Below, piece by piece: positions 2,058 through 29,906 of a stretch of DNA of 64,000 bases. This stretch comes from an uncultured Flavobacteriaceae bacterium (GTDB lineage Bacteria > Bacteroidota > Bacteroidia > Flavobacteriales > Flavobacteriaceae). The notes under the pieces are model-generated. The model did not search any database and was not told the origin of the DNA. It saw only the letters and a list, made by a program, of their open reading frames with translations. A program made the translations under genes and the position numbers. How positions within the stretch are numbered: position 1 is the stretch's first letter; each line of letters starts with the position of its first letter. The DNA lies in the NCBI GenBank assembly GCA_913048115.1, contig CAJWVI010000004.1, positions 1-64,000 on the forward strand. The letters run 5' to 3'.

Positions 2058-3326
2058 TCATTTATTTTTTAATTCTAACAACTCCCTCCATTGTGTGGTA
2101 TAGCGTTTACTGCGGTCTTTCTTGACAAGCTCCCACTCCTCTACCCTAGTACCTACCAAAGCTGAGCCTACGGTAGCTTTTCCAAACTTATGGTTTAACT
2201 GATCTATTACGTTCATCAGGCGTTTATCATGTAGTTTTAGATTTTCAAATAAATTGCCTTGCACATACTCTTGAGGCATCAACCCTGTAACATTTACACC
2301 TACCTTTTTATAACGGTACCCTGGTTTGTAGATACGTTGTAGTGCTTTTCTTGCTTGTTGTGTTAATACAAAGGTGTTGTTTGTGGGTACAGGCAGTGTC
2401 ACGATGCAACTGTCACTATGTTGCTTGTCGTTATCACTAAAATGACTTGTAGTCACAAAAACCTGTATATATGTTGCGCAAGATTTTTGAGCACGCAATA
2501 CTTCAGCGACTTCACTTATGTAATATGCACATGCTTCCTCTATACGTTCTAGGTCTTCCAATTTTTTTCCAAAAGATTTGGCGGTTCCTATTGCCTTTTT
2601 TGTTTTTGGCATCGTTCTAAATTCAATACAGGATTCTCCTCGCAGCTCTCTCCATAACCGCTCTCCTACTACAGTCATTTCTTTTCGTACCCAAGACAAA
2701 GGAAGTTGTGTAAACTCATAGGCTGTAAATACCCCTATATTTTTGAGTCTCGTTTGGTGTTTTTTACCCAAGCCCCAAACATCTTTGGTCTGTGCCCATT
2801 TAAGTGCCTTAATTCGTTTTTCATCTGTATCGATGACACAAACATGATCAAACTTTGCTACTTTTTTTGAGATTTTATTTGCCAATTTAGCCAGTACCTT
2901 GGTTGGTGCTATTCCTACTCCAACAGGAATTCCTGTATAGGTTACAATCTTGTCCTTAATAACCGTACCATAAGCTTTCAACGATACATGCTTGATACCA
3001 CTTACATCAATAAAAGCCTCATCAATACTATACACCTCTACATCAGGCGAGAAGGTTTCTAAAATATTCATGACCCGTTGAGACATTTCACCATACAGGG
3101 TGTAATTGGAAGAAAAAAAAGTAACCTTATTTTTAATAAGCTGATCCTTAATTTTAAACATAGGCTCAAACATAGGAATGTGCGCCATTTCTTTAGCTTC
3201 TTTATTAGCTGCAATCACACAGCCATCATTGTTACTTAATACCACCACAGGTTTTCCCCATAAATCTGGGCGAAATACTTGCTCGCAAGAAGCGTAAAAA
3301 CTATTACAGTCTACCATAGCTATCAT
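2058..3326 (-). CDS. umuC: DNA polymerase V catalytic subunit UmuC (Y family)
   Basis: Error-prone translesion DNA polymerase. Y-family metal ligands are intact: Asp6 in MVDCNSFYASCE and Asp102-Glu103 in YSIDEAFID. Thumb and little-finger regions follow and the length (422 residues) matches UmuC. The ATG at 3326 is chosen because it overlaps the umuD stop as ATGA, which implies translational coupling; an in-frame TTG at 3335 lies inside umuD and is less likely. It is the second gene of a umuDC operon and should share the umuD promoter and its palindromic operator. The intact polymerase contrasts with the damaged UmuD beside it. Confidence 0.95.
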   Translation of the reverse strand: MIAMVDCNSFYASCEQVFRPDLWGKPVVVLSNNDGCVIAANKEAKEMAHIPMFEPMFKIKDQLIKNKVTFFSSNYTLYGEMSQRVMNILETFSPDVEVYSIDEAFIDVSGIKHVSLKAYGTVIKDKIVTYTGIPVGVGIAPTKVLAKLANKISKKVAKFDHVCVIDTDEKRIKALKWAQTKDVWGLGKKHQTRLKNIGVFTAYEFTQLPLSWVRKEMTVVGERLWRELRGESCIEFRTMPKTKKAIGTAKSFGKKLEDLERIEEACAYYISEVAEVLRAQKSCATYIQVFVTTSHFSDNDKQHSDSCIVTLPVPTNNTFVLTQQARKALQRIYKPGYRYKKVGVNVTGLMPQEYVQGNLFENLKLHDKRLMNVIDQLNHKFGKATVGSALVGTRVEEWELVKKDRSKRYTTQWRELLELKNK

Positions 3327-3691
3327 GATGTACAATGTATTATATAGGTAATGATGCCCCAGACAACAAAAGAACCGCCAGAACTCGTTACAGGAATGCG
3401 TATTACCTTAAATGATCCCTCCTGGACTACCAAAACTAAGTTTCCTACTTTAGGGATGAGCGCTCTATCTATAATTAATACATCTTTATGTCGCATTGAA
3501 AATTGAGACCATGCATTACCCGATACCCGCACATAAAAAGTGGCATCTTTATGCTGTGTAAGCTCTTTGTTGAGATCTATAGACGGTTCTAAATAATGTG
3601 TCGCAGGACTTGGAAATCCAGTTTGCTTAGAAATTGCTGCTTCATGATGTGGTTCTTCTCTTTTAATTTTTCCTGTCTTCAAATATTCCAT
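3323..3691 (-). CDS. umuD: UmuD-like protein lacking the autoprotease Ser/Lys dyad
   Basis: Partner subunit of UmuC in DNA polymerase V, S24/LexA-like fold. UmuD normally cuts itself after residue 24 using Ser60 and Lys97 to give active UmuD'. This 122-residue protein aligns to E. coli UmuD without gaps through the core (FPSPATHYLE, IDLN, then the β core), so numbering is shared. Residue 60 is Ala (SGNAW in place of SGDSM), residue 97 is Ile (FKVIRI in place of FTVKKL), and the cleavage site reads Thr24-Gly25 rather than Cys-Gly. Self-cleavage therefore looks impossible. The C-terminus is shorter and divergent. The frame is open, so it is expressed rather than a frame-broken pseudogene. The ATG at 3691 is 4 bases from a -7 element, implying an almost leaderless mRNA. 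Confidence 0.88.
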   Translation of the reverse strand: MEYLKTGKIKREEPHHEAAISKQTGFPSPATHYLEPSIDLNKELTQHKDATFYVRVSGNAWSQFSMRHKDVLIIDRALIPKVGNLVLVVQEGSFKVIRIPVTSSGGSFVVWGIITYIIHCTS

Positions 3692-3735
3692 ATTGCAAAA
3701 ATATGGAATTATTCCATATTAAAGGAGTTATTCCA
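3685..3735. promoter_or_regulatory. Palindromic operator cluster over the umuDC promoter
   Basis: A perfect inverted repeat, ATATGGAAT-T-ATTCCATAT, occupies 3701-3719. A further ATTCCATAT half-site at 3685-3693 covers the umuD start codon and pairs with 3701-3709 as a second palindrome with a 7-base spacer. A partial half-site ATTCCA lies at 3730-3735. The cluster overlaps the umuD -7 element at 3696-3703. This is what a repressor site would look like, possibly for a damage-responsive repressor; the binding protein is unknown, and the sequence is not the E. coli SOS box (CTG-N10-CAG). Confidence 0.7.
3696..3703 (-). promoter_or_regulatory. -7 promoter element of umuDC (TATTTTTG)
   Basis: On the minus strand the site reads TATTTTTG, an exact match to the Bacteroidota TAnnTTTG -7 element. 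It lies 4 bases from the umuD ATG and is overlapped by the palindrome at 3701-3719. I see no convincing -33 TTG at the usual spacing, which would fit a weak, regulated promoter. Confidence 0.6.
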
Positions 3736-3781
3736 ACAATAAGATACCGTCAAAAGAGCATGTCAATGTATATAAATTCTG

Positions 3782-3789
3782 TACGTTTG
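3782..3789 (+). promoter_or_regulatory. -7 promoter element of the serine dehydratase gene (TACGTTTG)
   Basis: TACGTTTG matches TAnnTTTG and lies 18 bases before the ATG at 3808. It makes the longer reading from 3703 unlikely, since that would start upstream of the promoter and inside the umuDC operator. Confidence 0.6.
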
Positions 3790-3807
3790 AGCTACAAAAA
3801 ATTACCT

Positions 3808-5232
3808 ATGGAAAGTATCAGTATATTTGATATGCTTAAAATTGGTGTAGGGCCTTCCAGCTCCCACACCCTAGGACCTTGGCGCGCTTCGGGGCGCTGG
3901 ATTACCAGCCTAAAAAAAGGCGGGAACTTTAAAAAAATAGCACACATCTCGGTAGATTTATACGGGTCCTTGTCCTTAACAGGTAAAGGACATGCTACAG
4001 ATATTGCTGTTATGTTAGGGTTGTCTGGTTTTGACCCTGTAACATTTCCTATAGAAAAAATACAGCCTACCATAGATACCATAACCGAGACAAAAGTGCT
4101 TTCACTTAATAATGAATTGCCAATTGCCTTTACCAAGCAAGCCAATATCACATTCAACCGTAAATTTCTTGACTTCCACCCTAACGGAATTACCTTTACT
4201 GCAACCCTTACAAATGGAACCAATATTTCAGAAACCTACTACTCTATTGGAGGTGGTTTTGTAGTACAAGAGGAACGAAAACGCGCCAAAAAAAAACAAA
4301 AAAGTTTTTCTGAATTTCCATTTCAAATACAAGAAGGTGTAGATATATTAAAGCACTGTAAAGCAGAAGGCAAAAGCATTAGCGCTATCGTTCTTGAAAA
4401 TGAACTTTCATTACGTAGCTCAGAAGAAATTGACGCAGGTATTAAAGCACTTTGGGATGTCATGTTGGACTCTATGTATGTAGGATGTCATACCGTAGGG
4501 ACATTACCCGGCGGTCTCAACGTACGTCGTAGAGCATACAACACACACAAGGGCTTAATAGGAGAGGTCCCTTATCAAAACGCTTATCAATGGCTAAAGA
4601 CCATACGCGGTACCGAAGTTAAGTTTCGCCAAATATTAAAGTGGGTGAGTTGTTTTGCTTTGGCGGTAAATGAAGTAAATGCATCACTAGGACGGGTAGT
4701 TACGGCTCCTACCAATGGTAGTGCGGGTGTTATACCGTCTGTGCTTATGTATTATATGGTAATAGAAAACCATGATGCAGACTTTGAAGACATCAAAAAG
4801 TTTTTACTTGTAGCTAGTGAAATAGGAAGCCTCTTTAAAAAAGGCGCTACCATTAGCGCTGCTATGGGAGGATGCCAAGCAGAAATAGGGGTTTCTTCGG
4901 CCATGGCGGCAGGAGCACTTACAGAACGTATGGGTGGCTCTCCAGATCAATGTTTAATTGCAGCAGAAATAGCTATGGAGCATCACTTAGGGCTCACCTG
5001 CGACCCTATTGGAGGTTTGGTGCAAATACCTTGTATAGAACGCAACGCTATGGGTGCTATTAAAGCTATTAACGCTTGTGAGATGGCCCTTGATGCAGAT
5101 CCCTCTCAAACAAAAGTACCTATAGATAAAGTAATTGCAACGATGTGGGAGACCGCAAAGGATATGGCTGACAAATACAAAGAAACAAGTGAGGGCGGCT
5201 TAGCGGTTCAAGTAAACATGAGTGATTGTTAA
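3808..5232 (+). CDS. sdaA: L-serine ammonia-lyase, single-chain iron-sulfur type
   Basis: Converts L-serine to pyruvate and ammonia using a [4Fe-4S] cluster. One 474-residue chain carries both family parts: an N-terminal β-like domain with [19 protein letters not shown], which closely matches the family start, and a C-terminal catalytic α domain. Likely cluster ligands are Cys356 (GGCQAE), Cys398 (LTCDPIGG) and Cys409 (IPCIER). The ATG at 3808 is preferred over a frame-open start at 3703, because the extra 35 residues do not resemble the family and the -7 element lies at 3782. The gene diverges from umuDC. No terminator is obvious downstream. Confidence 0.95.
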
Positions 5233-28493: not shown

Positions 28494-29906
28494 ATGCTAG
28501 CAATTAAAGACACAACCTTTGCAATTATTGACGTAGAAACAACAGGAGGCGTGAATAAGGGTCGAATGACAGAGGTATGTATCATACTTGTTAAAAACGG
28601 AAAACGCATTAATACCTATAGCTCATTGATTAACCCACAATGCCTTATCCCTCATACTATCACTGCCTTAACAGGCATTGATAATGAGCTCGTTGCTAGC
28701 GCCCCTGTATTTGCAGAAATTGCTCAAGAAATCAATGAATTTACAAAAGACGCTGTGTTTGTAGCGCACAATGTGAATTTTGATTTTGGCTTTTTTAAGA
28801 AAGAATTTGCTGGACTTGGTATAGCCTATTTAAGAAAGAAGTTATGCACCGTACGTCTCTCTAGAAAACTAATACCAGGACTTCCGTCCTATAGTCTAGG
28901 AAGGCTAACTAGCGCTATAGGTATTACATTAACTGGAGCACATAGAGCCGAGGCAGACACCCTGGCTACCGTAGAACTCTTTAAAAAGTTACTTATAATA
29001 GATGCTGCTTCGGGGTACCAGACTATCTTACACTCCCTGGATGTAACCTCTAAAGAAGCAACACTACCTCCACACCTACCAGCAAAAGATATAGCGATGT
29101 TACCAGAGACTCCAGGGACATATTTTTTTAAAAATGAAGCTCAAAAAGTCATCTATGTAGGAAAAGCAAAAAACATTAAATCTAGAGTGCTTTCTCATCT
29201 GTATTCTAAACTTTCAAAAGAAATTGCATTAGCTCAAGAAACACACCATATCGATTTTGAAGAAACTGGAAATGAACTCACTGCATTGTTATTAGAATCG
29301 CAAAACATTCTTAAACATTACCCAAAGTATAATAAGGTACAAAAAAGGCCCACAACAACATATCAAATTATTAATTACACCAATAGAAAAGGAGTGATTC
29401 AACTCGCTATTGGGAAAACAAAAACAACTACAAACTCAATTGCTACGCTATACAGTAATGCATTGGCGATAGAAAAACTAGAACTTCTATGCCAAGAATA
29501 TGAGCTTTGCCCCAGATTCTGCTCTCTTCAAAGCCAAGGCGAAGCTTGTTCTCACTATAAAATAAAAAACTGCAAAGGTATTTGTCAAGACAATGAGGAT
29601 GTAGCAACTTACAATAGTAGAGTTATCAAAGCTGTAGATGCATTTCAAAAAAATCAAGCCAGTTATATTATTAAAGGAAAAGGCCGAAGCGCATCAGAAT
29701 TCTCAATTATTTTAATAGAGCAAGGAACCTATAAAGGCTTTGGATTTATTGATGGATCTGAAGCGATACAGTATTTTGATGATTTTGCAAATCATATCAC
29801 ACGATACAATAGCACCTATTACACAACTAAAATCATACAGTCATATCTTAAGAAAAATAGTAACAAAGATATTATCACTAAGAAAGAAGCTGCTTTTTTA
29901 TCCTAA
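28494..29906 (+). CDS. DEDD 3'-5' exonuclease fused to a GIY-YIG (UvrC-like) nuclease domain
   Basis: A 470-residue two-nuclease fusion. Residues 1-170 are a PolC/DnaQ-type exonuclease: FAIIDVETTGG (Asp13, Glu15), VFVAHNVNFDFGF and HRAEADTLATVELF. Residues about 200-285 are a GIY-YIG domain: ETPGTYFFKNEAQKVIYVGKAKNIKSRV, with Arg and Glu downstream. The rest has a Cys-rich patch (CPRFCSLQ, ACSHYKIKNCKGIC) as in UvrC/Cho-like proteins. The architecture is known in Bacteroidota and actinobacteria and points to DNA repair. The ATG at 28494 precedes the exonuclease fold directly. Confidence 0.92.
   Translation: MLAIKDTTFAIIDVETTGGVNKGRMTEVCIILVKNGKRINTYSSLINPQCLIPHTITALTGIDNELVASAPVFAEIAQEINEFTKDAVFVAHNVNFDFGFFKKEFAGLGIAYLRKKLCTVRLSRKLIPGLPSYSLGRLTSAIGITLTGAHRAEADTLATVELFKKLLIIDAASGYQTILHSLDVTSKEATLPPHLPAKDIAMLPETPGTYFFKNEAQKVIYVGKAKNIKSRVLSHLYSKLSKEIALAQETHHIDFEETGNELTALLLESQNILKHYPKYNKVQKRPTTTYQIINYTNRKGVIQLAIGKTKTTTNSIATLYSNALAIEKLELLCQEYELCPRFCSLQSQGEACSHYKIKNCKGICQDNEDVATYNSRVIKAVDAFQKNQASYIIKGKGRSASEFSIILIEQGTYKGFGFIDGSEAIQYFDDFANHITRYNSTYYTTKIIQSYLKKNSNKDIITKKEAAFLS

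Follow-up and report, generated by a model that had tools for sequence, protein, structure and literature searches.

A clade of shortened UmuD homologues in Flavobacteriaceae predicted to have lost self-cleavage and to act as UmuD′-like subunits of an SOS-controlled polymerase V

Introduction

In the textbook account, mutagenic polymerase V (Pol V) is delayed by a switch, the self-cleavage of UmuD driven by RecA. The umuDC locus of an uncultured Flavobacteriaceae bacterium raises the question of what becomes of Pol V control when the residues for this cleavage are replaced. The locus lies in a 64-kb stretch of DNA analysed here as a whole (the window), which is part of contig 4 of a 2.0 Mb genome in 80 contigs that is 90% complete. 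An initial annotation, made from the letters of the window, had proposed that the UmuD encoded here lacks both autoprotease residues, so that Pol V would be held in the uncleaved form, work without RecA-driven cleavage, or use another UmuD in trans. Here, we examine this protein, its UmuC partner and its upstream region together with those of its relatives. The two genes of the operon are:

3323–3691, minus strand: umuD homologue, 122 amino acids as translated from the open reading frame, matching Pfam PF00717
2058–3326, minus strand: umuC, encoding the catalytic subunit of Pol V, with the Pfam domains IMS, IMS_C and DUF4113

Results

The window encodes a UmuD homologue with a replaced dyad and a shortened C-terminal part

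Codon 60 of the window umuD is GCA and codon 97 is ATA, and alignment with E. coli UmuD places Ala on Ser60 and Ile on Lys97, in agreement with the initial annotation. Residues 22–102 of the E. coli sequence used for this alignment match PDB 8gmt_B, save for the Ala at 97 in 8gmt_B. The alignment had been described as ungapped, which holds to about residue 101 but not beyond, where a 17-column gap marks a shortened C-terminal part. At the cleavage site, the window protein has Thr24-Gly25 where E. coli UmuD has Cys24-Gly25. The protein passes the Pfam cut-off for Peptidase_S24 (PF00717; 31.4 bits, cut-off 23.3). With the NCBIfam UmuD model NF007621 it scored 82.2 bits, under the cut-off of 110, and eight other members of the short type described below scored 78.8–95.5 bits against the same cut-off.

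Structure prediction, one of the checks suggested by the initial annotation, gave a UmuD′-like model. The AlphaFold model, built with 51 sequences, had a mean pLDDT of 79.7, with values of at least 90 in 60 of the 122 residues; it is weak in the first 40 residues (block means 52–67) and hence uninformative on the N-terminal extension. Its nearest solved structure was UmuD′ (1ay9; Z 11.1, rmsd 2.3, 91 residues), followed by RecA-bound UmuD (8gmt) and 1umu, both at Z 11.0. LexA domains ranked lower (Z 9.2 or less), and Foldseek likewise put UmuD entries on top. The short UmuD is accordingly modelled with the UmuD′ fold. By fold, operon and descent, the window ORF is a UmuD homologue; judged by its dyad positions, its cleavage bond and its score with the curated model, it is predicted not to be an autoproteolytic UmuD.

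Short UmuDs were collected from 37 genomes of the family

The gene was found in 8 of the 11 genomes of the genus, whose assemblies fall into two size groups, of 1.7–2.1 Mb (59–90% complete) and 3.2–3.6 Mb (96–100%). Searching with a profile of these eight proteins gave matches at E 1e-3 in 170 of 299 family genomes, in two separate groups: 32 genomes matched at 3.7e-31 or better with most or all of the profile covered, and the remaining ones at 6e-24 or weaker. From this search we examined 32 short-form and 42 long-form loci; a few genomes also gave matches between E 1e-5 and 1e-12, outside this set. A further 65 loci were taken from named GTDB genomes, including Aequorivita, Cellulophaga, Maribacter, Leeuwenhoekiella, Mesonia, Salegentibacter, Dokdonia and Patiriisocius, by means of the sequence patterns FPSPATHY and [LM]EP[ST]IDL[NH][KQ]. 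The invariance of residues within these patterns is partly imposed by the fetch; positions 24, 60 and 97 lie outside them, and the profile-found loci of the family genomes are free of this bias.

The resulting 171 unique UmuD-like ORFs were divided, by the length of the segment matching E. coli residues 102–118 as the only criterion, into 88 short-type proteins, which are unique proteins from ranked searches rather than a census, and 83 long-type proteins. The long class comprises 82 UmuDs and the HTH-S24 protein L112, which was left out of the tree and of the conservation, upstream-shuffle, operon-order and box counts. Dyad, umuC, conservation and box comparisons use all 88 short rows; the codon and start scan, the dN/dS sample and the shuffles use 85, leaving out L041, which is without the trimming motif, and L235 and L236, which were added later. 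The short form was present in 37 genomes with 24 genus codes. In samples of the order (296 genomes) and of the phylum (395 genomes), which overlap and contain members of the family, matches of 1e-31 or better occurred only in the window's family among the matches listed; the other matches listed were at 1.5e-25 or weaker and mostly aligned from about residue 20. The weaker order and phylum matches that we examined were canonical UmuD. Spread by phages or plasmids was considered and rejected: with P0001 as the query, all matches were below 60% identity, both in 53 of 53 phage records and in at least 5000 plasmid records, all of those listed. The single relative from IMG/VR, L240, is a canonical UmuD with GDSM.

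Dyad and cleavage bond go missing together

A complete Ser60-Lys97 dyad was present in none of the 88 short-type rows and in all 83 long-type rows. Within the short class, Ser60 alone was found in 11 proteins and Lys97 alone in 10. Position 24 separates the classes as well, being Thr (84), Val (2) or Ser (2) in the 88 short proteins and Ala (81) or Cys (2) in the 83 long ones; in the Thr24-Gly25 named as cleavage site by the initial annotation, the bond itself is thus changed too. Over E. coli residues 99–121, the short rows have 12–19 residues fewer, and exactly 17 fewer in 62 of 88. Across the 88 rows of the short clade, positions 60 and 97 vary, with 2.65 and 2.76 bits, and both are invariant in the 82 long UmuDs. 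This co-segregation across 88 short and 83 long rows indicates that both catalytic residues and the bond go missing together.

All eight genus genomes with the gene lack Ser60, with Ala, Gly, Glu or Lys in its place, and all carry Ile97. Relatives with Ser60 and Lys97 at the same locus, which the initial annotation had named as grounds for giving up its reading, were thus not found in the genus, and its argument against a sequencing error is strengthened by the incomplete dyad in every clade member. Its remark that a single base change would turn each of the codons GCA and ATA into one for Ser or Lys is correct, but it does not imply a recent change, because the loss is common to the clade. 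Judging from these residues, self-cleavage has in all likelihood been lost clade-wide, as an old loss and not a private mutation. What had been presented as a local change in one protein is real, but belongs to this older loss, which is accompanied by changes at the bond and in UmuC, by a shorter C-terminal part and by an SOS box.

Short UmuDs form one clade under purifying selection

In a maximum-likelihood tree of 96 rows less than 85% identical to each other, calculated on 90 columns after removal of the trait columns, a single branch (support 100/96) set all 54 short rows apart; the inner forks of this tree are weak and its root was not inferred. UmuC rows split likewise, 50 short from 34 long, in a tree made by a quick method from the 84 of 95 usable rows and with long-branch warnings. 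The short UmuDs form one clade and have one origin on the UmuD tree. They are also under purifying selection: dN/dS had a median of 0.25 and a maximum of 0.66 (Nei-Gojobori, 80 sequences, dS 0.2–1.5) over 434 pairs, which share sequences and so are not independent. The most conserved stretch of the clade, Q-T-G-F-x-S-x-A-T-H-Y-x-E, corresponds to the UmuD′ arm and the residues preceding it; the fetch patterns account for part of this conservation, but ATHY is also seen in the loci found with the profile. Gln23 was found in 87 of 88 short proteins and is variable in long ones. The extension of about 22 residues before it has been kept, with a mean dN over gene dS of 0.32, compared with 0.24 for the body. 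As Gln23 is nearly fixed, the residues before the old cut now belong to the constrained protein.

UmuC retains its catalytic motifs and carries class-specific residues

The ATG of the window umuC (3326–3324) overlaps the umuD stop codon TGA (3325–3323) as ATGA at 3326–3323; the ORF tool starts the gene at TTG 3335, and the UmuC residue numbers given here count from that codon. umuC directly follows umuD in all 88 short-type loci, with the junction at 12 nt in 78 of them. The reverse of this usual operon order, umuC and then umuD, was seen in 19 of 50 long-type family loci (including L135, L137–L140, L142, L157, L209 and L210); in that survey 14 of 50 loci were without umuC in reach, and no more than about 145 bp of upstream sequence was available for seven of the umuC-first loci.

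The catalytic Asp and Asp-Glu motifs are kept in the window UmuC, as stated in the initial annotation, and both motifs are present in 86 of the 88 short-type neighbours (the first motif alone in two). That description of an intact active site did not extend to the class-specific replacements elsewhere in the protein. These lie in the N-terminal part (12, 19, 22, 24, 43, 44, 56, 62, 95 and 96), in the middle (among them 253–303) and in the C-terminal part (386, 403, 405, 408, 411 and 416), bearing in mind that short and long groups are separate clades anyway. Position 43 is Ala in 47 of 50 short-type rows and Arg in all 34 long-type rows, and position 44 is Asn in the short type where the long type has Ser. 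In Y-family alignments, position 43 falls within the fingers, over the nascent base pair. Nucleotide selection may differ in short-type UmuC, to go by these residues. In published models (PMC12926913), one UmuD′ is bound by the C-terminus of UmuC, and the second inserts its arm into the Palm–Little Finger cleft, close to the active site. Several of the changed UmuC regions sit where contacts with UmuD may be expected, which is suggestive only. The window UmuD probably works as a Pol V subunit.

Most short umuDC operons lie behind SOS boxes

Three elements were located upstream of the window umuD:

3696–3703, minus strand: TATTTTTG, a −7 promoter element of the Bacteroidetes type, with its end 4 nt from the start codon of umuD
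3705–3715, minus strand: SOS box 1, GGA-N5-TCC, GGAATAATTCC, identified by its motif and found at the same place in relatives
3724–3734, minus strand: SOS box 2, GGA-N5-TCC, GGAATAACTCC, 19 bp upstream of box 1 (−43 in L001)

Box 1 is the sole GGA-W5-TCC in the window, where 0.67 would be expected by chance, so that this count alone is uninformative. Across loci, GGA-N5-TCC occurred within 80 bp upstream of 78 of the 88 short genes and of 4 of the 50 long-type operons of the family, and two boxes in 62 of 88 against 2 of 50, with one rule for both classes; in effect, this contrast reflects few evolutionary events and not 88 independent ones. The box was present in 77 of 85 short upstream regions, compared with a mean of 1.34 and a largest value of 5 in 50 rounds of dinucleotide shuffling. 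It was absent in ten genes (L041, L050, L052, L062, L101–L105 and L235). Six of these belong to the seven-member sister subclade of the remaining short rows (L101–L105, L235 and L236).

We take TATTTTTG to be a −7 element on the basis of the motif TAnnTTTG, which was found within 22 nt of the start codon in 75 of 88 short-type genes. With a promoter element this close to the start in the window and in these relatives, umuDC mRNA may have almost no leader. A sigma-70 promoter scan gave 7 sites, against 6.8 in shuffles. Two further searches were abandoned: a box pattern with the wrong spacing gave 68 matches against 74 for its reversed control, and, for a wider regulon in the genome, copies of TGGAATNATTCCA with one mismatch occurred at 14 sites against 9 in the control, beside mixed genes. 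Divergent from umuDC, the ORF at 3703–5232 resembles L-serine dehydratase by eye; since the first ATG of this ORF (3703) runs into the SOS box region, its real start is probably further in. Elsewhere in the window, 28494–29906 encodes an exonuclease-like protein, presumably of DnaQ plus GIY-YIG build to judge by its motifs, near which a GGA-W5-TCC site was not found. A protein of DnaQ plus GIY-YIG type is listed under both SOS motifs in PMC8565304.

According to that study, GGA-N5-TCC is recognised by one of the groups of SOS repressors in Bacteroidetes, a group mostly confined to Flavobacteriaceae; exemplar repressors bind it, their targets are induced by mitomycin C, and a umuDC operon is among the putative members of the regulon (PMC8565304). 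Short umuDC appears to be controlled by an upstream SOS switch in place of UmuD cleavage, as far as the placement of the boxes can tell.

The genome encodes a candidate repressor that keeps the self-cleavage motifs

Besides the short UmuD, the only S24 protein found in the window's genome is L002, which is encoded on contig 71, has 267 aa, combines an HTH_3 with an S24 domain and keeps GDSM and VKKL. Three tandem A/T-spaced GGA-N5-TCC boxes lie at its gene start (2443–2496), and A/T-spaced boxes 8–12 bp apart were found only there in the genome (reversed-pattern control, 0). The ORF tool starts L002 at a TTG preceding the last box, and the true start is probably an ATG further in. By build and boxes, this is a putative non-canonical LexA of the published group. 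It presumably cuts itself and, by analogy with the exemplar repressors, would bind the umuDC boxes. Of the 37 short-form genomes, 33 contain a long S24 protein, with an open frame some 250–345 codons in length; all 22 regulators examined keep GDSM and the Lys motif, and 18 of them have boxes near their start. A long HTH-type S24 protein was not found in the other four, G170, G301 and G121 (64–76% complete) and the single-contig G134. With the motifs intact in 22 of 22 regulators and the dyad lost throughout the short clade, the same cells have preserved the signature of self-cleavage in their repressor but not in their polymerase subunit.

A canonical UmuD was found neither in the window's genome (90% complete, 80 contigs) nor, at E 0.01, in 31 of the 37 short-form genomes, among them the single-contig genomes G263, G250, G096, G236 and G245. 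It accompanies the short form in the other six, which leaves little room for the suggestion that another UmuD serves in trans. Genomes of the sister subclade with a canonical UmuD as well are G202, G100, G134 and G302, so that the dyad loss may have begun in a second umuD copy.

Discussion

We think it fairly likely that the short protein is a UmuD′-like Pol V subunit needing no self-cleavage, with RecA-driven proteolysis left to the repressor. It has lost the dyad, the Ala/Cys-Gly bond and, from the S24 domain, 12–19 residues (17 in most cases), but has kept the UmuD′ arm (GFPSPATHYxE) and core; the short UmuD, uncut, would act as a UmuD′-type accessory subunit of the UmuC translesion polymerase. 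Upon damage, the non-canonical LexA, an HTH-S24 protein with its dyad motifs kept, would cleave itself and free the GGA-N5-TCC boxes, and umuDC would then be transcribed as a ready-to-assemble Pol V. RecA-driven proteolysis would act only one step earlier than UmuD, at the repressor. Working without RecA-driven cleavage had rightly been listed among the options by the initial annotation; that the uncut short UmuD is active with UmuC we infer from the sequences. We regard as an even call the wider proposal that a lineage of Flavobacteriaceae has an SOS-induced Pol V without the UmuD-to-UmuD′ switch, in which the delay was discarded once and replaced by tandem-box transcriptional control, and the extension took on a different function together with a UmuC that evolved alongside it.

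Two observations speak against our preferred reading and make a lasting brake its main rival. The E. coli precedent, in which the uncleavable UmuD S60A greatly reduces UV mutagenesis (PMC3901139), would make an uncut form inactive or braking, and a pure mimic of UmuD′ would not need the constrained N-terminal extension. We also count against it the 10 of 88 genes without a box, six of them in the sister subclade, the canonical UmuD that accompanies the short form in four genomes of this subclade, and the 4 of 37 genomes in which no long HTH-type S24 protein was found. The short protein would, as a brake, stay permanently in the uncut UmuD-like state and serve with UmuC as a damage checkpoint or fidelity manager and not as a mutagenic Pol V. 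This agrees with the reduction of UV mutagenesis by S60A together with UmuC and with the restraint of UmuC and DinB by full-length UmuD (PMC3901139), and the extension is indeed kept and constrained throughout the short clade. However, the stretch matching the UmuD′ arm ranks with the best-conserved regions of the clade, even if partly through the fetch patterns, and both catalytic motifs are retained in 86 of 88 UmuC neighbours, as expected of a working polymerase pair. We judge a permanent brake unlikely, though the most probable of the rivals.

The other explanations seem to us less probable still. Another protease, or an internal translation start near codon 20–25, could give rise to a UmuD′-sized form, and in 38 of 85 genes an in-frame ATG, GTG or TTG does occur between codon 7 and two codons past Gly25; there is none in the other 47, nor in the window gene, and the codon five before Gly25 is GTG in just 13 of 85. 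Gln23 (87/88) and Thr24 (84/88) are moreover nearly fixed and the arm is under constraint, which makes this route improbable. Because UmuD acts as a dimer, and a canonical UmuD co-occurs in six genomes, an intact UmuD from elsewhere might be the active subunit or cut the short one in trans; its apparent absence from the window's own genome and from 31 of 37 genomes, five of them single-contig, together with the changed residue before the bond in 88 of 88 proteins, renders this very improbable. The single-base distance of the Ala60 and Ile97 codons from Ser or Lys codons would suit a sequencing error or a decaying pseudogene, but the dyad is absent in all eight genus genomes with the gene and incomplete in all 88 clade members, the frames are open and the median dN/dS is 0.25, so that we give this explanation almost no credence. 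A recent point mutation is contradicted by the clade-wide state and dN/dS.

If the wider proposal is correct, this lineage offers a natural experiment on the purpose of UmuD cleavage. With a clade in 37 genomes that lacks the switch and is still under selection, the need for cleavage can be tested by comparing relatives that have the switch with those that do not. An S24 peptidase annotation would be wrong for short UmuDs, of which the window protein passes the Pfam cut-off, and strict UmuD models may miss them in surveys, as the NF007621 scores suggest. Our literature search, with most subscription papers outside its reach, found no description of UmuD proteins without the dyad, and the sections of PMC8565304 consulted contain nothing on them.

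The closest known systems include E. coli UmuD/UmuD′ (S24), with which the short UmuD shares the fold (1ay9, Z 11.1), the N-terminal arm motif, the operon with umuC and an SOS-type box upstream; it differs in having no Ser-Lys dyad, Thr and not Cys at position 24, and a 17-column C-terminal deletion. HumD, of the phage P1 type, is a naturally UmuD′-like relative of UmuD that is not known to need cleavage or to carry the N-terminal extension. The HumD model NF051876 matches the core of the window protein at 58.8 bits, though under its cut-off of 120; the short UmuD has lost the dyad and, unlike HumD, keeps the 22-residue extension. With the non-canonical LexA of Bacteroidetes (HTH-S24, COG2932 group; PMC8565304), it has in common the GGA-N5-TCC boxes, which are also present at the gene for the protein of this build on contig 71 of the same genome, but that repressor keeps the dyad motifs and an HTH domain, and the short UmuD has neither. 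Finally, UmuDAb of Acinetobacter (PMC8565304) is likewise a UmuD lineage in which the roles of repressor and polymerase subunit have shifted; UmuDAb has a DNA-binding domain and still cleaves, whereas the short UmuD appears to have lost cleavage.
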